IMG/VR virus record: IMGVR_UViG_3300006846_000063
Span: 1-21,617 of that record
Strand: one strand, 5' to 3'
Length of the DNA stretch: 21,617 nt
Source: a virus
The notes below the pieces were generated by a model. That model had not been told where the DNA came from and searched no databases. It worked only from the letters and a program-made list of their open reading frames with translations. Positions 3,252 to 21,617 of this stretch are shown in pieces (the first letter of the stretch is position 1; every line of letters starts with the position of its first letter). Position numbers and translations under genes: made by a program.

Positions 3252-3608
3252 TTACGTTGTTATGGCAGCGAAGATCGCGCAGAACACGGTCAGCACCAAG
3301 ATGCCGCCGGTGACCATCTGCCAATCGCGCTTTACCACTGCGAGGCCATAGGTCCAACTCATGTGCGGCACGCTGGAAAGGAAACCTACAAAAACGACCA
3401 CCTGCATCAGAATAAATATGATGGCGATCAACCCCAGGGGCCCACCCACCAGAACACCGAATGCCGGACCGCCACGCGCGCTGTCAATTCCCATGACCGC
3501 ATAGCAAACGACGAGCGCGGTCACGTAAAGAGTGACACCCGCGATGAAGAGCAGGTTGCCTAGTCTGGCTTCGGTCCCTGCTCGGTGAGCCTCGTGGGCT
3601 TGCGACAT
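3252..3608 (-). CDS. Small integral membrane protein, candidate moron gene
   Basis: This 118-residue protein is encoded against the direction of the structural operon. It has three or four hydrophobic segments: about 17-39, 48-78 (long enough for one or two spans) and 98-117. Short polar loops separate them, and the N-terminus is soluble and His/Arg-containing. The start is supported by GGAGAG seven bases before ATG (coding-strand sense). No family could be named. The opposite orientation, its own spacer (3609-3763) and its place at an operon boundary fit a phage moron expressed separately, perhaps acting in the host membrane (for example in exclusion). That role is inference. Overlapping + strand frames have no plausible start or composition. 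Confidence 0.6.
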   Translation of the reverse strand: MSQAHEAHRAGTEARLGNLLFIAGVTLYVTALVVCYAVMGIDSARGGPAFGVLVGGPLGLIAIIFILMQVVVFVGFLSSVPHMSWTYGLAVVKRDWQMVTGGILVLTVFCAIFAAITT

Positions 3609-3763: not shown

Positions 3764-4495
3764 ATGACAATCAAACCCATGGACGTGTGGATCGGATTCG
3801 ATCCACGCGAGACGGCTGCATTCATGGTGGCGCGCGAGAGCGTCCGCCAATTCGATCGCAGCATTCCGGTCGCGGCCGTGCGATTGCGGCAGCTCCAGGA
3901 GGCGGGGCTCTACACGCGGCCGACGTCGCGCCGGCTCGGCAAACTGTGGGACGAAATCTCCGGCGCGCACATGGCGACGGAATTCGCGATCACGCGCTTC
4001 CTGGTGCCGGAGTTGGTCAGGCGGCAGGGCGACGCGGTGCGCGGCTGGGCGCTGTTCATGGATTGCGACGTGCTGCTGCGCACGAACCTCTATGAGCTCA
4101 AGGCGCTCCTCGACGATTCGAAGGCCGTAATGTGCGTCAAGCACGACCATCGCCCGTCGTTCAACGTGAAGATGGACGGCCAGGAGCAGACGTCTTATCC
4201 GCGCAAGAACTGGTCGTCGGTGATGGCTTTCAATGTCGATCATCCCGCCAACGACGCGCTGACGGCCGACCTGGTCAATGCGCTGCCGGGGCGAGATCTG
4301 CATCGCTTCTGCTGGCTTGCCGACGACGAGATCGGCGCGTTGCCGCCCGAGTGGAATCATCTCGTCGGACACAGCGATGACGGGGACGATCCGAAGATCG
4401 TGCACTTCACCGACGGCGGTCCGTGGTTCGAGGCGTTTCGTAACGTGCCCTATGCCGATGAATGGTTCGCGGTGCTGGACCGGATGGTGGCCTGA
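3764..4495 (+). CDS. GT-A type glycosyltransferase (GT8-like)
   Basis: This is a predicted nucleotide-sugar transferase of 243 residues. WIGFDPRETAAF near the N-terminus and FMDCDVLLR at about 98-106, carrying the DxD metal/nucleotide-sugar site D100-C-D102, are typical of GT-A enzymes of the GT8-like kind. KIVHFTDGGPWF near the C-terminus matches the conserved His/Gly region of those enzymes. There is no signal peptide or membrane span, so it is cytoplasmic. The stop overlaps the next gene's start (TGATG), so it is translationally coupled to the methyltransferase-DUF115 gene and then to the head-tail genes. The substrate could be a virion protein, host surface glycan or DNA; nothing here decides. 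The RBS is weak and the start is the first ATG of the frame. Confidence 0.7.
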   Translation: MTIKPMDVWIGFDPRETAAFMVARESVRQFDRSIPVAAVRLRQLQEAGLYTRPTSRRLGKLWDEISGAHMATEFAITRFLVPELVRRQGDAVRGWALFMDCDVLLRTNLYELKALLDDSKAVMCVKHDHRPSFNVKMDGQEQTSYPRKNWSSVMAFNVDHPANDALTADLVNALPGRDLHRFCWLADDEIGALPPEWNHLVGHSDDGDDPKIVHFTDGGPWFEAFRNVPYADEWFAVLDRMVA

Positions 4496-5958
4496 TGCTG
4501 ATTTCGCCCGACTACCTGGCTTTGCAGCAAGCGCTGCATGCCGATGGCCGCTACGGGATCAGCAGCGGCCGCTGGGTCGACATGGTCCGTGGCTTGAAGG
4601 AGCGTGAGCAGTGCTCGGACATCCTTGACTACGGTTGTGGGCAAGGACAGCTCAAGGCGGCGTTGGGTGACGGGGTGCGGGAATACGATCCGGCGATTGC
4701 TGGGAAGGATGCTGATCCTGAGCCTGCCGATCTCGTCGTGTGCACCGATGTGCTCGAGCACATCGAGCCCGATTGCCTCGACGACGTGCTGCTGCATCTG
4801 CGCACGACGGTAAAGAAACGGCTGTTGTTCGCGATTTCGCTGCGCCCGGCCGGCAAGACACTGGCCGATGGTCGCAACGCGCATCTGATCGTCGAGAGCG
4901 CTGAATGGTGGCTTGAACGGCTGGCACCGTATTTTCGCGTGCTTGAGACGATCGAGACCAGTCGTCGTGAGCTCGCCGGCATCGCCAGACCGGTCAGCGT
5001 CGTCGGAGCGATCAAGTCGGTCGGGGTGATGAAGGACGAGCGCAACGATCACACGCGCCAAAATGTGCTCAAGACGCCGAAGCGGATCCCGGACCAGCCG
5101 GTGGCGCCGCACGACCTCGTGGCGCTGATCGCCTGCTACGGGCCGTCGTTGCGCGCGACCTGGCCGTCGTTGCCGCAACAAAGGAAGAAGCTCAACGCGA
5201 CGCTGGTCTCGGTGTCGGGTGCGCATGATTTCCTGCGCAAGCACGCCGTCGTGCCCGACCTGCATGTCGAATGCGATCCGCGGCCGCACAAGGCCAGGAT
5301 GATGCGCAAGCTGAGCCGCAAGACCGCGTACATGATGGCTTCCTGCTGCCATCCGGACGTGATCGACCCGCTTGCCGGCTATGATCTCACACTTTGGCAT
5401 CTCTACAACGGGCCGGAAAGTTTTGAGGTCCGCGACATCAAGAGCGAGGAAGGCTGCGCGATGATCCCCGGCGGCGGCTCGGTCGGGCTGCGCACCATCA
5501 CGCTGCTCTATTTTCTCGGCTACCGAAATTTCATCGTGCACGGCATGGACTGTTCGTTCGAAGATACACCAGCGCGTTCACGCGCGTCTTCAACGTATAA
5601 TGCCCAGCATGCCGGCGCGCACAGCGGCAAAGTCCAGAACACCATCGAGGTCAATCCGGCTTGCAAGGTCGGTGACGAAACGATGCGCTCCGACAAGTGG
5701 TTCAAGACCTCTCCGGTCCTGGTGAGTTACGCCAACCACATGCTGAAGGATCTGCGCATCGGCCGCTATCCGGCCTGCAATTTCTATTGGTACGGCGACG
5801 GACTGTTCCAGGAAATGCTGCGGCTGCAGAACCTGCAGATGCGGGCGCTCGATGCCGATGCGCAGGCGAGGGGGATCGACCAGGTTTACCGCGAGCCAGC
5901 GGACTATTTCAGCATGAACGAGCGCGACACGAACAGCTCTGAGGAGAACGCTGCATGA
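4495..5958 (+). CDS. SAM methyltransferase fused to a DUF115 (MptE/Maf-like) domain
   Basis: This is a two-domain protein of 487 residues. At about 40-160 lies a class I methyltransferase: ILDYGCGQGQL (motif I, 43-53) and VCTDVLEHIEP (82-92). At about 205-450 lies a DUF115-like region: ALIACYGPSLR, LHVECDPRPHK (about 257-266) and GCAMIPGGGSVGLRT, followed by FIVHGMDCSF. DUF115 proteins include archaeal MptE and the Maf flagellin glycosylation factors, which handle nucleotide-activated sugars. The fusion therefore suggests sugar transfer plus methylation, which is inference. The ATG at 4495, overlapping the preceding stop, is chosen over an upstream in-frame start inside the glycosyltransferase gene. 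It ends in an ATGA overlap with the next gene. A long - strand frame across its first half is a shadow. Confidence 0.7.
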   Translation: MLISPDYLALQQALHADGRYGISSGRWVDMVRGLKEREQCSDILDYGCGQGQLKAALGDGVREYDPAIAGKDADPEPADLVVCTDVLEHIEPDCLDDVLLHLRTTVKKRLLFAISLRPAGKTLADGRNAHLIVESAEWWLERLAPYFRVLETIETSRRELAGIARPVSVVGAIKSVGVMKDERNDHTRQNVLKTPKRIPDQPVAPHDLVALIACYGPSLRATWPSLPQQRKKLNATLVSVSGAHDFLRKHAVVPDLHVECDPRPHKARMMRKLSRKTAYMMASCCHPDVIDPLAGYDLTLWHLYNGPESFEVRDIKSEEGCAMIPGGGSVGLRTITLLYFLGYRNFIVHGMDCSFEDTPARSRASSTYNAQHAGAHSGKVQNTIEVNPACKVGDETMRSDKWFKTSPVLVSYANHMLKDLRIGRYPACNFYWYGDGLFQEMLRLQNLQMRALDADAQARGIDQVYREPADYFSMNERDTNSSEENAA

Positions 5959-7277: not shown

Positions 7278-8834
7278 ATGTCCGCACGGATGACAGCGCG
7301 CCCGCGCCGGCGGGCGCCGTTCAATATCGCCTCGATCCCGCCGCCGGTCGGCGGCTGGAACCGGCGCGACGCCATCCCAATGATGGATGAACGCGACGCT
7401 ATCCGCCTCGACAATTGGATTCCGGATACCAACTCAGTCCACCTGCGGGCCGGCTATACGACACATGCGCCGATCGCGGCAACCGCGACCGCGGTCGAGA
7501 CGCTGATCCAATACGTTCCGCCGAATACCGCGAACGCCAAGCTGTTCGCCGCTATTCCTTCCGCGCTCTATAACGTCACCGCGGCGGCGACCGCGTCGTC
7601 GACCGCAGTTGCGATCAGCGGGCTTGCGAACGGTCGCTGGCAATACGATCAGATGACCAACACCGCCGGCACGTTCCTGATGATGGCGAACGGGACCGAC
7701 GCGCCTCGTCTTTACGATGGCACGACGTGGACGACCGCGAGTGTCACCGCGTCGGGCCTCACGACCACCAACATCGTCGCCGTGCACAATCACATGAACC
7801 GGCTCTGGCTGGTCGAGGAGAACCAGCTCCACGTTTGGTACCTGTCGACCAGTGCGATTGCCGGGGTGCCGACGAAATTCCTGCTTCCCTTCCGCAAGGG
7901 TGGGAAGTTGGTGGCGATGGGCTCGTGGACCCGCGACGGCGGTTCTGGCCCCGATGATTACGCGGTTTTCGTGTCGTCGCGTGGGGAATGCCTGATCTAT
8001 GCCGGCACCGATCCCTCGAGCAGCACCACATCGGCGCTGGTCGGTGTCTACTCGATTCCCGAGGTCATCGGACGGCGCTGTCTCATCAGCGCCGGCGCGG
8101 ATCTCGGCATCCTGACGTCACAAGGGTTGGTGCCGCTGTCGCAGATCCTCGGGATGACCACGGGCGCGTCATCGCGGGCGAGCTTCACCGACAAGATCAG
8201 CGGGCAGTTCCGTGATCAGTATCAGGCCAGCGGCACGGCGTTCGGGTGGCAATGCATCGAATATCCGAAGCAGAACCTGCTCATTATCAACGTGCCGATC
8301 TCTGAACGGAGCCTGCAGCATCAGTACGTGATGAACATCAACACCGGCGCCTGGTGCCGCTTCACCGGGATCAATGCTGGTTGCTGGTCGCTGCTCGGCG
8401 ACAGTCTCTACTTCGGCGGCAATGATGGCGTCGTGCGTAAATTCGACTCCGGCCACCTCGACGGGTCAAGCAACATCACCGGGACGCTGCAATCGGCTTA
8501 CGGCATCTTCGGCTCGGTTCAGACCAAGCGCTACACCATGGCGCGACCGCTGTTCCTGGCGCCGTCCGGCTACAATCCGCCGGTCACGATCCAAACCGAC
8601 TACGACACGTCGGAGCCGGCCGTCAGCGTCGTGTCGGTGCAGACCGGCGGGACGCAGTGGAACGCCGCGCAATGGGACACGTTCCAGTGGGCCGGCGGCG
8701 CGGTGCCGTCGCTCGGGTGGCAAGGCGTGACGGGCGAGGGGCGAGCGGCCTCGATCGCGTTCGGCGTCTCCGCACAGGAGGAGCTTACGTACAACGGCGC
8801 GGATATCGGATTTGAGCGAGGGAATTATCTATGA
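7278..8834 (+). CDS. Tail nozzle / tubular tail protein
   Basis: This is a 518-residue, beta-rich protein, likely the nozzle that continues the adaptor ring in short-tailed phages (similar in role to P22 gp10 or T7 gp12). The N-terminus (NIASIPPPVGGWNRRDAIP, then DNWIPDTNSVHLRAGY) is the usual opening of this group. The middle has repeating strand patterns expected of a propeller-like body (AVHNHMNRLWLVEENQLHVW, LISAGADLGILTSQGLVPL). The C-terminus has RYTMARPLFLAPSGYNPP and a Trp-rich strand region. The ATG at 7278 lies directly after the adaptor stop; the frame is open further upstream but that part only overlaps the adaptor gene. It ends in an ATGA overlap with the next gene. Confidence 0.7.
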   Translation: MSARMTARPRRRAPFNIASIPPPVGGWNRRDAIPMMDERDAIRLDNWIPDTNSVHLRAGYTTHAPIAATATAVETLIQYVPPNTANAKLFAAIPSALYNVTAAATASSTAVAISGLANGRWQYDQMTNTAGTFLMMANGTDAPRLYDGTTWTTASVTASGLTTTNIVAVHNHMNRLWLVEENQLHVWYLSTSAIAGVPTKFLLPFRKGGKLVAMGSWTRDGGSGPDDYAVFVSSRGECLIYAGTDPSSSTTSALVGVYSIPEVIGRRCLISAGADLGILTSQGLVPLSQILGMTTGASSRASFTDKISGQFRDQYQASGTAFGWQCIEYPKQNLLIINVPISERSLQHQYVMNINTGAWCRFTGINAGCWSLLGDSLYFGGNDGVVRKFDSGHLDGSSNITGTLQSAYGIFGSVQTKRYTMARPLFLAPSGYNPPVTIQTDYDTSEPAVSVVSVQTGGTQWNAAQWDTFQWAGGAVPSLGWQGVTGEGRAASIAFGVSAQEELTYNGADIGFERGNYL

Positions 8835-11971: not shown

Positions 11972-12664
11972 ATGCTGGCGCAACGCGGTGGGATGAGCCG
12001 GAGAGCCTTTGCGGGCGGCTTGGGAACGCTTGTCGCAAGCCTGCCGAACGTTTGTCTTGCGCAGTCTTGGCCAACCACCGGCTATTGGGGTGTCTGGAAG
12101 CGAATTCCTTCGATCCTTGTTGTTTCAGATCCCAAAGATCCAAGGTTGCCGGCCGTATACGACGCTGTCGCTTTTTGGAATGCGATGTTCTCCAATCTTG
12201 GCAGCCCGTTTCGTCTTGGTTCCGTGAGCCACATAGCTGAAACGGTCCCACCACAGGACTCTCTCCGCAATTTCCACCGAGGCCTCGATCAGGTTCTGCA
12301 AATAGTCGGTTCGAACAATATGATCTTGCTCGACCACGTTCGTGACCTAAATGGAGATGTGGTCATTGCTCTGCTGAACGGGCCTACGTCGTTCTTCGCA
12401 GCGAGTGGCGGAAGTCGGAAAGTCCTGGTCGTGATACGGGACCATCGAACTTATTCATCCGATAAGTCGAATGAGCTTCTGGTCACGATCGCGCATGAGC
12501 TCGGCCATGTGATTGGATTGGATCACAACGATGATGAAACCGCGCTGATGTGCGGCAGCAATTGCATCGACACGTCCAAGCGTTTCTTGTCGCTTACGAA
12601 ATACGAAAAGAACCGAATTCTTCACATGTACCCTGCGGGCTGGCGGGGCGACGCATCGCGCTAG
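11972..12664 (+). CDS. Tat-exported matrixin-like metalloprotease
   Basis: This is a predicted secreted zinc peptidase of 230 residues. The N-terminus has a twin-arginine signal, S9-R10-R11-A-F13, followed by a hydrophobic Gly/Ala/Leu stretch ending near CLAQ (28-31). The catalytic site is complete: HELGHVIGLDH gives zinc ligands H175, H179 and H185 and the base E176. ALMCG (191-195) supplies the Met-turn, so it belongs to the metzincins, matrixin-like group. C-terminal KRFLSLTKYEKNRILHMYP fits the end of such domains. The frame is open upstream, but the codons there do not look coding; ATG 11972 has GGGGAAG in front. Codon use is less G+C-rich than in the structural genes. A secreted protease is unusual among virion genes; it may act on the host envelope or be a cargo gene for the lysogen. 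Confidence 0.75.
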   Translation: MLAQRGGMSRRAFAGGLGTLVASLPNVCLAQSWPTTGYWGVWKRIPSILVVSDPKDPRLPAVYDAVAFWNAMFSNLGSPFRLGSVSHIAETVPPQDSLRNFHRGLDQVLQIVGSNNMILLDHVRDLNGDVVIALLNGPTSFFAASGGSRKVLVVIRDHRTYSSDKSNELLVTIAHELGHVIGLDHNDDETALMCGSNCIDTSKRFLSLTKYEKNRILHMYPAGWRGDASR

Positions 12665-13109: not shown

Positions 13110-14219
13110 ATGACTACGATCCCTCTATCCATGCGTGAAGGTCACGGCCAGACGCTGTCCGGTGGCGACGCGCCGCTTGCTGCGTCGCGCTCTGACGATG
13201 ACGGCAAGCTCGACGAATTGATCGACAGCGTCACCGCGACGATCACGAGCCGCGACGCGTCCAATGGCGAGCGCGACGAGATATTGCTCGACGATTCTTC
13301 AGGCGACGAGAGCGACACTTGGCGCGACCTGAAGGCCAAGCTCGACGATCCCGAATCGGTGCACGAGCGCGGGCCCGACACTGGGCTCGACCGTGCGTTG
13401 AAGGTGGCGGTCGATCGCCACGCCAGCCAGGAGGCGGAGAGCGCCGACTTCCACCACTCGCGCCAATGGCGGGCCGAGCTCGAGCAGCGGTACGACGGAC
13501 GTGTGGCGATCGGCGGCCTGCTTGACATGTTTGCGGATTGGCACGAGCGCCTCAAGGTGAATCCGCGCGCTGCCGCCGACGCGATCGCGTCCTCCTATCT
13601 CAAGCAGGCGCCTGACGCGGTTTCCCACGAGGTCCGGCGGCCGGGCAAGCCCGAAGGCGCGGCGCGCGCGGAGAGCGCGAATGCCGACCAAAAGCTGAAT
13701 GGCATCCTCGATGCAGCGATCGACCGGCATCATGGCGAGGGCGACGGCGAACAGCGAACATTCGCTGCGAGCGCCCGGCATCGCGCGGCGCTCAAAGAGA
13801 TGTTTCCCGGCATGTCCTACGCAGAGGCATGCCGCCGTGTCGTGAAGCTCGATGGCGATCTGCATCGCGATCCGCTGGCGACGGCTGGGCGCCTGGCGGC
13901 GACCTACGGCATGACGGTGACGCCGGCGCAGCAGGCCGTCGCCGAGCACCGGCAGGCGGCGGCGGGCGATGCACAGCAAATGGTCGCGTCCGCTGCGGAG
14001 CACATGCCAGAGCTGACGGAGATGGAGGACGAACTGGTTGAAGTGCTAGGCCGTCCCGACTTCGTGCATGGGCCGGACATGCAGAAAAACCTGCTACGTG
14101 CGCATCACGTGGTGCAAATGGCGCGCGACGCGCGACGGCGCGACCTTCATGTCACGCGACGGGCCCCGGCCCGTGACGATCTCGACGGCCAGATCGCGCA
14201 GGCGATGCAGGGCGCGTAA
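13110..14219 (+). CDS. Charged helical phage protein with a tandem internal repeat
   Basis: This is a 369-residue soluble, highly charged protein. ATG 13110 (AGGA about ten bases upstream) is preferred to starts further up, which overlap the gene at 12776. Residues 1-90 are acidic and low in complexity. Two copies of a unit of about 75 residues follow, at about 92-166 and 196-268. Both have the pattern L-x-x-(A/I)L-x-x-A(V/I)DRH, ... (H/A)SxxxR(A)xL..(R/M)(Y/F)xG, ... L..(N/D)P.A(A/T)A...A(S/T)Y. A further helical part includes MPELTEMEDELVEVLGRPDF and an Arg-rich end. Similar segments (a helix, then DP..T...LA..YG) occur in uncharacterised proteins of alphaproteobacterial phages. A scaffolding-like or ejected role is possible; no enzyme motif is present. 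Confidence 0.55.
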   Translation: MTTIPLSMREGHGQTLSGGDAPLAASRSDDDGKLDELIDSVTATITSRDASNGERDEILLDDSSGDESDTWRDLKAKLDDPESVHERGPDTGLDRALKVAVDRHASQEAESADFHHSRQWRAELEQRYDGRVAIGGLLDMFADWHERLKVNPRAAADAIASSYLKQAPDAVSHEVRRPGKPEGAARAESANADQKLNGILDAAIDRHHGEGDGEQRTFAASARHRAALKEMFPGMSYAEACRRVVKLDGDLHRDPLATAGRLAATYGMTVTPAQQAVAEHRQAAAGDAQQMVASAAEHMPELTEMEDELVEVLGRPDFVHGPDMQKNLLRAHHVVQMARDARRRDLHVTRRAPARDDLDGQIAQAMQGA

Positions 14220-14351
14220 GTCGGGCAGCCTGGCCAGCTAATCTTGCAAAGGCGGCAACTCGCAACCCGTTCTCGAATCGGCGGGCTCGCGCTTGCGTGA
14301 GACGACGACAGATTCGACGACGGTTTCAACGACTCTAATTTGGAGGCACCC

Positions 14352-15626
14352 TTGGCATTCAACGGCTCAGGCGTCCACAATCGCGTCCACGACTGGACGC
14401 AGGATTTGACCAATACTATTCCCGTCACCGCATCCCGCATGGATGCGGAGCACGACGACATTTCGACGGCGCTCTCGTCGGTCATCTGCCGTGATGGGCA
14501 GAGCACGACGACGGCGCGGATTCCGTTTGGGGCCGGACTTTCGGCGGCTGCCGGCGCGACGTCGTCAGTCGCCTATGCTCAGACCAATGACCTGAACACG
14601 GGAATGTACTTTCCGGCAACGGATCAGTGGGGCTTGGTTGCCGGTGGCACGGCGGTTGCGGTAGGCACGGCATCTGGTGTTGCTGTAACTGGAGCGTTCA
14701 GCACGACCGGCGCTGTAACGCTCTCGGATGCTCTAGCACTAACTGGCAACTTGGCGATCAATACCAACAAATTCACGGTGACGGCGGCTAGCGGCAACAC
14801 GGCGATTGCTGGCACGCTTGGTGTCACGGGTGATGTCGCGGTCAATACCAACAAATTCACCATTGCGGCCTCGTCGGGGAATACGGCAGTCGCGGGAACG
14901 TTTGGCGTAACCGGAGCTTCGACATTCGGTGCGGCTGTCACGGTTTCGGCCGGCGGTGCGGCTATCATCGGCAGCTCATCGGTCACTGGCTCGCTCACGG
15001 TATCGAGTAACTTTACTGTCTCCGGCGGAACCGTCTCGCTTCCTGTCGCAACTGTTGCAGACGCCGCCTTGGCCACGCCAGGATGCATGAAATTGATTTT
15101 GTCGCAGACAGCTTCCGGCTCAGCGACGATCGACTTCAATCAAACCAACGCTGCAGCTGCGTTCAACGGCACCTATAAACGATTGATGGTCGTCATATCG
15201 AGCATTAAGCCAGCGACAAACGACGTTGAGCTGTGGTTCCGCGTCGGTACTGGGGCGGGCCCTACGTACCAGACAACGGGATATTCCTATGCCAATGATG
15301 CGAGCATACCTGGTGCGGCCGGCAATCCGACGGGGGCAAGTGCTTCTAGAATTATCGTCGCTGGTGATGGAGCTTCTAACAGAGCAATTGGTAACGGGAC
15401 TGGAGAAAAGTACTGCGGCACGCTCTGGTTCGACGCCCCGGAGCTGTCCGATATCATGCCGGTCTGGTACGAGGGCGGCTACATGAGCGCTGATACCCAG
15501 TGGTATCAATACAATGGCTCTGGCGCGTATACCACTGCTGGTGCGATCACCGCAATTCGCTTCATGATGGAGTCGGGAAACATCGCTTCCGGGACGTTCG
15601 CGCTTTATGGGATAAAGAATTCCTAG
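14352..15626 (+). CDS. Tail fibre A
   Basis: This is a receptor-binding fibre of 424 residues. The likely start is TTG 14352, five bases after GGAGG; the in-frame TTG at 14340 overlaps that RBS. The first 45 residues (AFNGSGVHNRVHDWTQDL, then RMDAEHDDISTALSS) are the usual virion-anchoring head of fibres in this phage group. The shaft (about 60-240) is Gly/Ala/Thr/Val-rich with a 28-residue tandem repeat. The C-terminal domain (about 240-424) is a jelly-roll-like tip that ends in AIRFMMESGNIASGTFALYG, a common fibre-tip ending. The stop codon shares CTAG with the stop of the - strand methyltransferase. A 132-base spacer upstream (14220-14351) shows no gene and no clear promoter. Confidence 0.75.
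   Translation: MAFNGSGVHNRVHDWTQDLTNTIPVTASRMDAEHDDISTALSSVICRDGQSTTTARIPFGAGLSAAAGATSSVAYAQTNDLNTGMYFPATDQWGLVAGGTAVAVGTASGVAVTGAFSTTGAVTLSDALALTGNLAINTNKFTVTAASGNTAIAGTLGVTGDVAVNTNKFTIAASSGNTAVAGTFGVTGASTFGAAVTVSAGGAAIIGSSSVTGSLTVSSNFTVSGGTVSLPVATVADAALATPGCMKLILSQTASGSATIDFNQTNAAAAFNGTYKRLMVVISSIKPATNDVELWFRVGTGAGPTYQTTGYSYANDASIPGAAGNPTGASASRIIVAGDGASNRAIGNGTGEKYCGTLWFDAPELSDIMPVWYEGGYMSADTQWYQYNGSGAYTTAGAITAIRFMMESGNIASGTFALYGIKNS
14742..14909 (+). repeat. Tandem 84-bp repeat in the fibre A shaft
   Basis: Two in-frame copies of 84 bases (14742-14825 and 14826-14909) encode 28-residue units beginning TGNLAINTNKFTV and TGDVAVNTNKFTI. The 19-base stretch TCAATACCAACAAATTCAC is identical in both (14758 and 14842). 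Such units can lengthen or shorten the fibre shaft by recombination. Confidence 0.75.
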
Positions 15627-16384
15627 TCAGTAGGAACGATCAAGTAGTTGTGGCCCATGATCTGTTTCTTGATCTTGTATCCAAGGCTGGAGATGACTTC
15701 TTCATAGTCTCTGAAAGACGTTCCGAATTGGGCCTGTAGCTGTTGCTCGAACTCGAACAGAACGGGGCTTCGATTGCCTTTGATTGTTTGCGCCGCCCCA
15801 TTGATTGCATTCAGATCGCTTCCCTGAATGTCGATCTTTATGAAGCTAACGTTGCCGATGCCTAAGTCGTCGATCGCGGTTGAAATAACCGCGCGCCCTT
15901 CGGATGCTCTTGGGTCGATGCCATAGGCGCCGAAGCAAGCGATGTTCTCAGGCACCGGATAGATAAGCGTCTTGCCGCTCTCGGACCAAACTGCAGATTC
16001 GTGAACAATGATATTTCTGGCTTTGTTGGCCTCTACATTCATGCGCAACAAAGAGCAGACAAACGGATCGGCTTCGAACGCATGAACTTTGCCCTTTTGC
16101 CCAACCATCCGTGAGAATAGAACGGCCATTTGGCCGAAGTTGGAGCCAACGTCCAGTACCGCCGTTCCTGGTCTGATGTGTTTGGCGGACTCTTTCACAA
16201 CCTCTCTCTCAAAGATGCGTCCTCGCCGCATCGTTATTGCAATCAGGTCGTCGATGAGAGGAAGCCACCAGTTACCCGTTGTTGTCTTGAAATAGCCAAT
16301 CTCGTGACCCTGTACGACCTTGGTTTCGGTCGGCGCGACTGGCTTGCGCCTTGGAAGACCCAGAAATCTGCTCAACCTGCTCAT
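15623..16384 (-). CDS. FkbM-type methyltransferase 1, antisense between fibre genes
   Basis: This is a 253-residue SAM-dependent methyltransferase. VLDVGSNFGQMAVLFSRM (77-94) is motif I, VHAFEADPF (100-108) holds the acidic ribose-binding residue, and FIKIDIQGSDLNAINGAAQT (181-200) with PVLFEFE is the FkbM signature. FkbM-family enzymes O-methylate sugars, polyketides and other surface molecules. The ATG at 16384 is favoured; the frame is open to 16456 through fibre B's coding region. No good RBS is seen; AAGGG lies about 14 bases upstream. The stop overlaps that of fibre A on CTAG, and the start is 9 bases from the start of fibre B, so any promoter must lie inside fibre B. Its G+C is lower than in the structural genes, which suggests acquisition. 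Confidence 0.7.
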   Translation of the reverse strand: MSRLSRFLGLPRRKPVAPTETKVVQGHEIGYFKTTTGNWWLPLIDDLIAITMRRGRIFEREVVKESAKHIRPGTAVLDVGSNFGQMAVLFSRMVGQKGKVHAFEADPFVCSLLRMNVEANKARNIIVHESAVWSESGKTLIYPVPENIACFGAYGIDPRASEGRAVISTAIDDLGIGNVSFIKIDIQGSDLNAINGAAQTIKGNRSPVLFEFEQQLQAQFGTSFRDYEEVISSLGYKIKKQIMGHNYLIVPTD

Positions 16385-16393
16385 GATATGCCA

Positions 16394-16522
16394 ATGCCCT
16401 TCACCGGTGACACCTTTACCCACCTTTTCGACTGGGAGAAAGACCCTCAGCGCCAAGAAAAGATCGTCAACGCAGGTCTTGAAGCTGAATTTGACGGAAT
16501 CGATACGGCACTTTCAACGCTC
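16394..16522 (+). repeat. Fibre head module, copy 1 of 2 (partner at 17554-17682)
   Basis: These 129 bases match 17554-17682 at about 80% by eye. Most differences are in third codon positions, so the encoded heads (MPFTGDTFTHLFDWEKD and onward) differ at about three of 43 residues. This shows an old duplication under purifying selection and defines a swap point for different fibre bodies. Confidence 0.75.
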
Positions 16523-16716
16523 AAAGTAGTCGGCCATGGCGTCGGTCCTGTCAGCGTCGCGGATTGCCGCTCCGTGCTGTTCGGGGGCGGCAGGACGCGT
16601 CGGGAGCGGTGGTCAACTTCAACAATGGCGACGTGACATCACGCGTTCGGCTTATCGCTCGCAGCGACGCTGTGGATCCCCACCGTTACCACTTCATAAT
16701 TCTATCGAACGAATGA
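16394..16716 (+). pseudogene. Short tail fibre B with a -1 frameshift
   Basis: The first 43 codons (16394-16522) encode the same fibre head as fibre C, with about three residue changes. The original frame ends at TGA 16634-16636 in an Arg-rich, unlikely tail. From the G5 run at 16583-16587 the -1 frame gives a normal-looking fibre sequence (QDASGAVVNFNNGDVTSR, then HRYHFIILSNE) and stops at TGA 16714-16716, one base before the stop of the converging methyltransferase. One missing G would explain this; -1 slippage on C-GGG-GGC is an alternative. The joined product would be about 107 residues. No RBS is visible before ATG 16394 or the in-frame ATG 16388. Either a decayed gene, a sequencing error or a frameshifting gene. 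Confidence 0.6.
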
Positions 16717-16717
16717 A

Positions 16718-17536
16718 CTATCTGAACGATCGCAGCCGTCTTCCAATCGATTTGATAGTGCATTTGGTCGCGCGCCACTTCGGGATACCAAGCGCGCTTG
16801 CGGAAAGTTTTGGGTTGTTGAAGCGGTAGCCGCCGTGAAGTCCGACATTCCGCTCAAATAAGTAATTGGCGTCCTTGTTCGTTACGGCTGAATACCAGTC
16901 GGCCCAGCCTTGGGCTGCTGTGATGGTTGGTAACTCTGCTTGCGCGCCCGCGTCGTTGGCGAGAAAGAAAGCGTTGCCGCCGAAATAGCAGACCAGCCGA
17001 TATCCGAGTTCGTTGCCGCGCCGAACAAAAGCGGCGAGCGGTTGCCCCACATTGCGCCTCGCCGTCTTGGCAGGGAGCAATTCGGTTCGGTCAGGTCCAT
17101 GCTCTGGTTGTACTTCAACGACCACGAGGCGTGGTCGGTGATCCAGGTCATCCAGCGCCGAGAAGTGATCGAAATCCAGCCCGTCAATATCGATTGAGAG
17201 AAGGTCTAGCCGTCGTTTCGCAAGTCCGGTGGATTTTAGGATGTCCGCGAGATTGTTGCACTTCGTGCCCACTGCAGCGTTTACGCAAACGACCTGTTCG
17301 TTAGACAGATAGGTCCGCCGAAGTTGCTGGAATCGTTCAGGGCAGGCTTCAATCAGCAGCGCGCTCCAACCATCGAGGATAAGTGAGCGGGTGTTCGATA
17401 GGTGTAGCCCATCCCATGCGCCAAATTCGCAACAGAACCTTTCGCTGGCGCCGATGACATCGAAAACCCTTTGAATGATGCCGTCTTCGCCACTCTGCGA
17501 GAAATGTTTCTGCTGGTAGTCGACTAACCGCTGCAT
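16718..17536 (-). CDS. FkbM-like methyltransferase 2, antisense between fibre genes
   Basis: This is a 272-residue predicted methyltransferase, only distantly similar to methyltransferase 1. The N-terminus QQKHFSQSGEDGIIQRVFD is a known opening of an FkbM-like group. EFGAWDGLHLSNTR (37-50) is a variant motif I, ALLIEACPERF (59-69) carries the acidic residue, and LDLLSIDIDGLDFDHFSAL (110-128) followed by RLVVVEVQPEHG corresponds to the FkbM core. Start choice: ATG 17536 without a clear RBS, or TTG 17554, which would add six residues and sit on the ATG of fibre C on the other strand. Its stop (16718-16720) lies one base from fibre B's shifted stop. The target is unknown; the setting suggests surface sugar or virion modification. 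Confidence 0.65.
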   Translation of the reverse strand: MQRLVDYQQKHFSQSGEDGIIQRVFDVIGASERFCCEFGAWDGLHLSNTRSLILDGWSALLIEACPERFQQLRRTYLSNEQVVCVNAAVGTKCNNLADILKSTGLAKRRLDLLSIDIDGLDFDHFSALDDLDHRPRLVVVEVQPEHGPDRTELLPAKTARRNVGQPLAAFVRRGNELGYRLVCYFGGNAFFLANDAGAQAELPTITAAQGWADWYSAVTNKDANYLFERNVGLHGGYRFNNPKLSASALGIPKWRATKCTIKSIGRRLRSFR

Positions 17537-17553
17537 TCTGGAGAGCTCGCCCA

Positions 17554-18471
17554 ATGCCTTTCACAGGCGACACCTTTACTCATCTTTTCGATTGGGAGAA
17601 AGACCCCCAGCGCCAGGAAAAGATCGTCAATGCAAGATTGGAGGCTGAGTTCGACGGATACGATACTGCACTATCGGCACTCCAATTCGACACCCGCGAG
17701 AGGCTAAACGCAAACCGGACCTACTACGTAAGGACGGACGGTAGCGACAGCAATACAGGATTGGTGGACAGCGCGGGTGGGGCGTTTCTGACGATCCAGA
17801 AGGCAATTGACGTTGCAGCCGCTCTTGACATCACGATCTTCAACGTGACGATTCAGGTCCGCAACGGGACCTACACGGGCGCTGTCACGCTCAAAGACCC
17901 GGTCGGTGCTGGCACCGTCACGATCACGGGCGACACGACCACGCCTAACAACGTGGTCATCAGCACGACCTCGGCGACGGCGTTCACGGTCAACAAGACT
18001 CAGCGCGTCAACGTGACAGGTGTGAAGGTCACGACGGCCACCTCGGGCTTCGGCTTCTTGGTGTTTAACGGGGCCAAGCTGTCGCTGACGCACATCGACT
18101 TCGGTGCTATCGCGACCGGCGGTGCGGGAATCTTCGCGACTGACGGCGGCACGCATGTCGTTCTTGGCGGCGCAAACTGTAAGTGGTCGGGAAATTGCGA
18201 CCGCCTTCTCAGCCTCAACAACCAAACCAACTTCAACTTTAACGGCACGATCACGCTCCTCGCGAACGTTACGGTTGCTTCCGACACGATCGGCGTTAAC
18301 GGCCTCTCGTTCGTGCAGTCGACCGGTACGTGGACATTGGGCGCGTTCACGGTGACGGGCACACGCTTCAACAACGTCAACAAATCGCTCATCCAAACCT
18401 TCGGCGCTGGGGCCTCCTACTTCCCCGGCACCGTTGCCGGCACAACGGACGCATCCAGCACATACGCATGA
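17554..18471 (+). CDS. Tail spike C with a predicted beta-helix
   Basis: This is a 305-residue receptor-binding protein. The start ATG 17554 has GGAGAG eight bases upstream. Residues 1-43 are the shared head module (FTHLFDWEKDPQRQEKIVNA). From about 50 onward, TYYVRTDGSDSNTGL and FLTIQKAIDVAAALD open a right-handed parallel beta-helix of the pectate-lyase type. Repeating N/T/V strand turns such as ATSGFGFLVFNGAKLSLTHI continue to about 270, then FPGTVAGTTDASSTYA ends the protein. No catalytic residues for polysaccharide cleavage can be assigned by eye, so binding and depolymerase roles both remain possible. A small fibre-associated gene follows at once. Confidence 0.7.
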   Translation: MPFTGDTFTHLFDWEKDPQRQEKIVNARLEAEFDGYDTALSALQFDTRERLNANRTYYVRTDGSDSNTGLVDSAGGAFLTIQKAIDVAAALDITIFNVTIQVRNGTYTGAVTLKDPVGAGTVTITGDTTTPNNVVISTTSATAFTVNKTQRVNVTGVKVTTATSGFGFLVFNGAKLSLTHIDFGAIATGGAGIFATDGGTHVVLGGANCKWSGNCDRLLSLNNQTNFNFNGTITLLANVTVASDTIGVNGLSFVQSTGTWTLGAFTVTGTRFNNVNKSLIQTFGAGASYFPGTVAGTTDASSTYA

Positions 18472-18478
18472 GGACGCG

Positions 18479-18859
18479 ATGATCTTCGACCCGAAGCATT
18501 GGTATTGGTTTGTTGCTGGCGACGAGACGCGCGTGTTCTCGAGCCGGGCAGGGGACTACGTCCAACTGACCAACCCGGCCTATGTCGCGTGGCGGGCCGA
18601 CGGTGGCGTGCCGACGCGCATCGTCAGCGAGGCCGAGCTTGGTGAGGTGTTATCGCCGCATCGTGTTCGCCCGAACGACGCGGCAGTACTCGAAGCTTAT
18701 CTCGATACCCAGGCGGGCGAGGTGATCGACGCCTTCCAGTTCAAGATTCTCTTCCAGCACGAGAACCGCCTGCGCGCGTTGGAGCGCTGGGCGGGCCTCG
18801 ACAACAAGCCCAACCTCACCCCCGCGCAGGCGCGCGCAGCCGTAAAGGTGATGCTTTGA
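18479..18859 (+). CDS. Fibre-associated small phage protein
   Basis: This is a 126-residue protein whose ATG 18479 has GAGG of the TGAGGACG stop region of the spike gene as its RBS, so the two are co-translated. The N-terminal half (FDPKHWYWFVAGDETRVFSS, then YVQLTNPAYVAWRADGG) is a small Trp-rich beta domain. The second half is helical (FQFKILFQHENRLRALERW). This type is found after tail fibre genes in many rhizobial prophages and is thought to be a fibre-assembly protein or attached virion protein. The assignment rests on position and general likeness. Confidence 0.55.
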   Translation: MIFDPKHWYWFVAGDETRVFSSRAGDYVQLTNPAYVAWRADGGVPTRIVSEAELGEVLSPHRVRPNDAAVLEAYLDTQAGEVIDAFQFKILFQHENRLRALERWAGLDNKPNLTPAQARAAVKVML

Positions 18860-21363: not shown

Positions 21364-21617
21364 ATGAGCGTTCCCGTTGACGACCTCCCGCCGGCTGTCC
21401 GTGTCGGCCCGCACGACATCCGCTTCGCGACCCTCGGGACCGCCGATGCGCGCAAGAACTATGGAACGTTCATCCCCGCCGAGCAGGAGATCCAGCTCCA
21501 GCAGGCGTATTCCTCCGGTTCGATGGCGGCCGAGACCGTGCTGCACGAGCTCATGCATGCGGTCTTCGCCGTCGGGGCGGTGCAGGTGAAGCTGGGCGAG
21601 GAGCACATCGTGTCCGT
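21364..21617 (+). CDS. Zincin-like phage protein, 3'-truncated by the window edge
   Basis: The frame runs off the window, with about 84 residues visible. VRVGPHDIRFATLG and the following beta-rich part lead to ETVLHELMHAVFA, whose HELMH is an HExxH zinc site (H-E-L-M-H at about residues 60-64). Short phage proteins with this order (VRVGP..., QEIQLQ, then HE..H) are known to me from rhizobial prophages and resemble ImmA/IrrE- or SprT-type peptidases. ATG 21364 is used; an in-frame TTG at 21349, overlapping the preceding stop, would add five residues. Neither has a strong RBS. The rest of the active site lies beyond the end. Confidence 0.6.
   Translation, partial: MSVPVDDLPPAVRVGPHDIRFATLGTADARKNYGTFIPAEQEIQLQQAYSSGSMAAETVLHELMHAVFAVGAVQVKLGEEHIVS

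Follow-up and report, generated by a model that had tools for sequence, protein, structure and literature searches.

Two minus-strand genes of the FkbM methyltransferase family are placed between the fibre genes of a short-tailed phage, and the reading we favour, as reasonably probable, is that they are receptor-modifying morons, that is, sugar O-methyltransferases that would lower phage adsorption. By analogy with known phages, such morons probably serve superinfection exclusion. The layout of the locus, the FkbM membership of the two genes, their intact motifs, their absence from close relatives and their lower GC content are all directly observed.

The window, by which we mean the whole 21,617-bp virus record analysed, encodes a short-tailed phage with PHROG matches for a major head protein, a tail protein and virion proteins. 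The same virus was found on a second contig of 40,439 bp (99.97% over the whole window), and since the plus, minus, plus, minus, plus arrangement is also present there, it is not an assembly error of one contig. The last 205 bp of the window (21413-21617) are repeated about 0.9 kb onward with 95.6% identity (36520-36724 of the longer contig). Relatives of the protein encoded at 7290-8834 occur in phages of Rhizobium, Bradyrhizobium, Sulfitobacter and Myxococcus and in bacterial genome contigs, from Mesorhizobium and from others that are mostly alphaproteobacterial. On the 40-kb contig, itself probably incomplete, we found no integrase or repressor and recognised no replication genes, and DNA polymerase A was not found in the relatives; an integrase is present in two relatives (G017 and G020), and prophage relatives occur in Rhizobiales. 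No structured RNA or tRNA was found. Elsewhere in the window, an antisense ORF of 118 aa with hydrophobic stretches and no Pfam match lies in the head-gene region (3252-3608, minus strand), and a Matrixin-like (PF00413) metalloprotease with a signal-like N-terminus is encoded among the virion and ejection genes (11972-12664, plus strand). The stretch between the head and tail genes (3764-5958, plus strand) encodes one protein that matches PHROG_28018, of unknown function, and another, 498 aa long, that combines a methyltransferase-like region with an MptE-like domain (PF01973, 1.6e-17); these genes are possibly further glycan-related cargo.

The locus itself reads fibre A (14352..15626, plus strand), a first methyltransferase, MT1 (15623..16384, minus strand), an ORF with head B (from 16388, plus strand), a second methyltransferase, MT2 (16718..17536, minus strand) and spike C (17554..18471, plus strand), which is the strand order given in the original prediction. 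Its further claim that each methyltransferase starts within 20 bases of a plus-strand head was borne out, the ATG of MT1 at 16384 lying next to the ATG of B at 16388 (or 16394), and that of MT2 at 17536 next to the ATG of C at 17554. The methyltransferases also end where the preceding fibres do, as had been claimed: the stop codons of fibre A (15624-15626) and MT1 overlap in the palindrome CTAG, and the MT2 end at 16718 adjoins the out-of-frame continuation of B, which ends at 16716. MT1 and MT2 are indeed only distantly related, with no BLASTP similarity between them. The layout is real and tidy, and was misread in part, B being a remnant.

Fibre A (424 aa) uses a TTG start with a GGAGG Shine-Dalgarno motif at 14342-14346 and matches PHROG structural proteins. 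It has an A-type N-terminal head, a repeat body and a variable C-terminus, and its first half is 50-58% identical to the fibres of three relatives (L163, L165 and L166). The original prediction spoke of the same fibre head; this holds closely for B and C, which share a head repeat of 135 bp at 82% DNA identity (16391-16525 and 17551..17685, both plus strand), but not for A, whose head has 32% protein identity to the other two. The predicted fibre B (16388..16716, plus strand) does have a head, located in an 82-aa ORF that runs to 16636, but the fibre is not intact: a short body follows in another frame to 16716, and the frameshifted ORF lacks a Shine-Dalgarno motif, while A has GGAGG and C has GGAG. 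In the second frame, ASGAVVNFNNGDVT is a 14-residue match to a stretch of the L163 fibre. Judging from its sequence, B is probably a decayed, dead fibre. With B a remnant and head A distant, the locus has two antisense methyltransferases but only one intact B/C-type fibre.

Of the 129 bases compared between heads B and C, 23 differ, 18 of these at third codon positions, and the proteins differ at 3 of 43 residues. As these differences are mostly synonymous, each head evolved as part of a functional protein until B was disrupted, and such a divergence makes a very recent duplication of head B within its own genome less likely; the two heads may instead come from different phages. Head B had no match among GenBank phages, and a search for a minus-strand promoter within the head repeat gave nothing exceeding chance. 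Another viral contig (L022:656-6146) has about six copies of a fibre with a C-like body in tandem, and fibre duplication recurs in that fibre family.

Spike C (305 aa) combines the B/C-type head with a predicted beta-helix body, and its relatives were found in many phages. Its structure model (pLDDT 78.6, pTM 0.75) has a low-confidence head, and the body gives beta-helix matches. We considered a pectin methylesterase, on a weak NF041901 match (1.9e-5) and fold matches, and rejected it: TM-scores were below 0.5 and no Asp or Arg is invariant across the C-terminal two thirds of the family alignment, and for these reasons spike C is treated here as a binding beta-helix. The predicted beta-helix, with its weak resemblance to pectin methylesterases and no conserved Asp pair seen in the family alignment, adjoins the methyltransferases. 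A small protein follows (18479..18859, plus strand), the same gene being found behind the C body in L004 and L085; from its position it is a possible fibre chaperone.

FkbM enzymes transfer methyl groups onto hydroxyls of small molecules and sugars. MT1 (253 aa from ATG 16384) matches PF05050 at 1.1e-14 and TIGR01444 at 1.7e-24, above the cut-off, keeps the SAM-binding motifs DVGSNFG and IKIDIQG, and its profile matches the solved FkbM structure 2py6. MT2 (272 aa from ATG 17536, or 278 aa from TTG 17554) is a divergent FkbM-like protein, which matches PF05050 at 1e-7 (32.7 bits against a cut-off of 22.7) and scores 21.8 against TIGR01444, below the cut-off of 37.7. Its motifs EFGAWDG and SIDIDG are common to its homologues in Rhizobiales genomes. 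A profile search of the PDB with MT2 together with its cellular homologues gave no match, and a structure model of MT2 from one sequence (pLDDT 31) was not used. The methyltransferases have a GC content of 51-55% against 62% in the other genes, and a GC3 of 0.62 against 0.75-0.82, a base composition that is only supportive because the GC3 of fibre A is also low (0.64). When both genes were scanned for promoters, of the sigma-70 type only, and for terminators, the results were no better than shuffles. Insertions in a host FkbM gene were reported in two phage-resistant clones of Serratia symbiotica, among clones with other LPS mutations (PMC12505973), which ties this enzyme class to phage receptors.

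The site between fibre A and spike C is empty in relatives of the same podovirus kind. In L085, a 42-kb relative with an integrase, 3 bases separate the end of fibre A (5291) from the start of a full-length spike C relative (5295), and the small gene behind the latter resembles the gene after C in the window. The end of fibre A overlaps the start of a B/C-type head protein in L165/L167, and in L163, the closest relative (80% for the tail protein), as in L166, fibre A is present without a methyltransferase. There is no FkbM match anywhere in the records of L085, L163, L165/L167 and L166, and no antisense methyltransferase beside the heads in L056-L075, L085, L163 and L165-L167. The 1.9 kb with MT1, B and MT2 is thus most readily seen as having been added in this lineage, and the methyltransferases, on this comparison, as its cargo. 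The original prediction had proposed a fixed cassette of fibre head and FkbM gene; since near relatives have these heads without an antisense methyltransferase, a finding that the prediction itself had named as counting against it, the two are not an obligate pair, and such a cassette is ruled out by the empty sites.

We also surveyed the neighbours of 117 other distinct fibres sharing the C body or a head, inspecting two genes on each side with our own simple codon-model gene caller, and counting antisense neighbours of at least 200 residues and sense neighbours of 200-700 residues. An antisense neighbour was present at 10 of the 117 fibres (L041, which has two, was counted once), and six of these neighbours belong to two enzyme classes: SAM methyltransferases at L004, L104 and L039, the last an FkbM, and acyltransferase-3 proteins (PF01757) at L006, L111 and L117. 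Among the sense neighbours (n=144), there is a single SAM methyltransferase, and glycosyltransferase hits were obtained for three. The difference gives a Fisher p of about 1e-7 (2e-6 counting the glycosyltransferases, 2e-4 after removing three of the six hits), values to be read with the ten antisense genes, the crude gene caller, the relatedness of the fibres and some flanks that may be host DNA (L039) in mind. With 6 of 10 antisense neighbours against 1 of 144 sense neighbours, the association between fibre and enzyme is not random. Most surveyed fibres have no antisense enzyme; a large antisense gene, if there is one, is usually of a surface-modifying type. What had been predicted as a receptor-binding gene paired with an enzyme for surface sugars is thus upheld in its geometry, by this enrichment together with Sf6 oac and P22 gtrABC, and not in its fixed pairing: the link is a favoured position.

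On the reading that we favour, insertion, or recombination via the repeated fibre-head sequence, would have put the methyltransferases between fibre genes that are direct neighbours in relatives, with fibre B as a putative decayed passenger. They would be made from minus-strand transcripts of their own, independently of the late operon, either in lysogeny or early in infection, and MT1 and MT2 would methylate the host LPS or capsule sugars bound by the fibres; methylated receptor sugars would then lower the adsorption of the same and of rival phages. Here, expression, substrate, effect and lysogeny are what we infer.

The main competing account, unlikely although a serious contender, is that the methyltransferases are neutral or transient hitchhikers, which arrived with fibre exchange via the conserved head, play no role in receptor choice, and adjoin fibres because this region tolerates insertion and recombines often. 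Their sporadic occurrence, the decay of fibre B and the 82% identical heads as crossover sites are in keeping with it, as are FkbM genes found elsewhere in other phages, flanked by ribonucleotide reductase genes in DLP_6 and close to the tape-measure gene in L049. However, while fibre B decayed, neither methyltransferase lost its full-length frame or conserved motifs, and the set of antisense genes next to fibres leans to surface-modifying enzymes, not arbitrary genes. The tight packing of each methyltransferase with a head, and the different enzymes beside different fibre bodies, would also suit a host-range module along the lines of the original prediction, in which the enzymes alter the surface in lytic infection, progeny with the linked fibre bind the modified receptor, and matched pairs are swapped. 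We regard this as improbable, given that relatives have fibres without methyltransferases, that fibre B is a remnant, and that L004, with a C body at 83% identity, has a non-FkbM methyltransferase one fibre upstream. No second phage had close relatives of both the fibre body and the enzyme. Methylation of the phage's own fibres, which the original prediction had offered as another option, or of another virion protein, would explain adjacency and nothing more; it is very improbable, since the late genes lie on the other strand from the methyltransferases, the same fibres occur in near relatives that lack these enzymes, and the known substrates of FkbM enzymes are small molecules and glycans. 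The option of fibre methylation found no support.

A broader idea, doubtful but quite conceivable, is a "bind-and-mask" locus common to many kinds of phages, in which a slot at the fibre end would repeatedly take an antisense receptor-editing enzyme (FkbM, another methyltransferase or acyltransferase-3), swapped with the fibre body through exchange via the conserved fibre-head sequence. If true, phages would have an overlooked receptor-masking chemistry in the methylation of O-antigen or capsule sugars, which would join acetylation and glucosylation as a means of shutting out later phages, and the antisense slot beside fibres would offer a simple way to find receptor-modifying genes in metagenomic phages with unknown receptors.

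The arrangement is similar to that of phages known to modify their receptor. In the short-tailed Shigella phage Sf6 (AF547987), tailspike gene 14 (13719-15590, plus strand) is followed by oac (gene 15, 15624-16625, minus strand), an enzyme gene that is likewise antisense and convergent, with 33 bp from the tailspike stop to the oac end. Unlike the window, where two methyltransferases are placed between fibre genes, Sf6 has a single gene for a membrane O-antigen acetylase, next to the integrase where the late region ends, and with an annotated putative promoter and terminator. In Salmonella phage P22 (NC_002371), tailspike gene 9 (plus strand) is also followed by antisense, convergent receptor-modifying genes (gtrC, gtrB and gtrA, minus strand), but these form a three-gene glucosylation system with its own promoter, located at attP and without a methyltransferase. 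P22 GtrABC blocks adsorption (PMC10883804) and D3 acts likewise through acetylation, Sf6 and Sf101 also altering the O-antigen (PMC11436027); the word "methyltransferase" is absent from the latter, a review of superinfection exclusion. Our literature searches for phage O-methyltransferases in O-antigen modification, and for opposite-strand acyltransferases at fibres, found nothing.

Four Rhizobiales prophages of the same podovirus kind as the window have short antisense ORFs of 73-105 aa, several of them hydrophobic, in the interval from the last large ejection-type gene to the fibre (L178:17368-17882, L183:17485-17757, L188:17658-17975 and L191:17572-17808). P22 has its antisense sieA and the ant moron at this place, and by analogy these ORFs are candidate superinfection-exclusion genes. 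A further prophage of this kind, in Mesorhizobium 1M-11, harbors an antisense FkbM gene past the lysis genes, the only FkbM match of that genome.

FkbM genes are also found near fibres in Sinorhizobium phages. In AP-16-3 (OP484857), the authors noted an ORF resembling bacterial FkbM (PMC10460002); this gene (UYE95745; PF05050, 1.4e-11) is antisense and convergent as in the window, with 41 bp between its end and that of an 825-aa gene, probably tail fibre H. However, AP-16-3 is a siphovirus-type temperate phage, with one methyltransferase after the fibre and no repeated head. In the temperate phi3LM21 (MF614628), the FkbM gene p49 directly follows two tail fibre genes (PMC5537653), but on the same strand as the fibres. 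L004 (IMGVR_UViG_3300050500_000141) is also similar, in that the end of an antisense SAM methyltransferase overlaps the stop of one fibre and the downstream fibre has a C body 83% identical to spike C; the enzyme, however, is a Methyltransf_11 and not an FkbM, the genome is unrelated and has an integrase, and the fibre heads differ. On the favoured reading, the window presents a known kind of viral trick, with a less usual chemistry, two enzymes, and a site between fibre genes.
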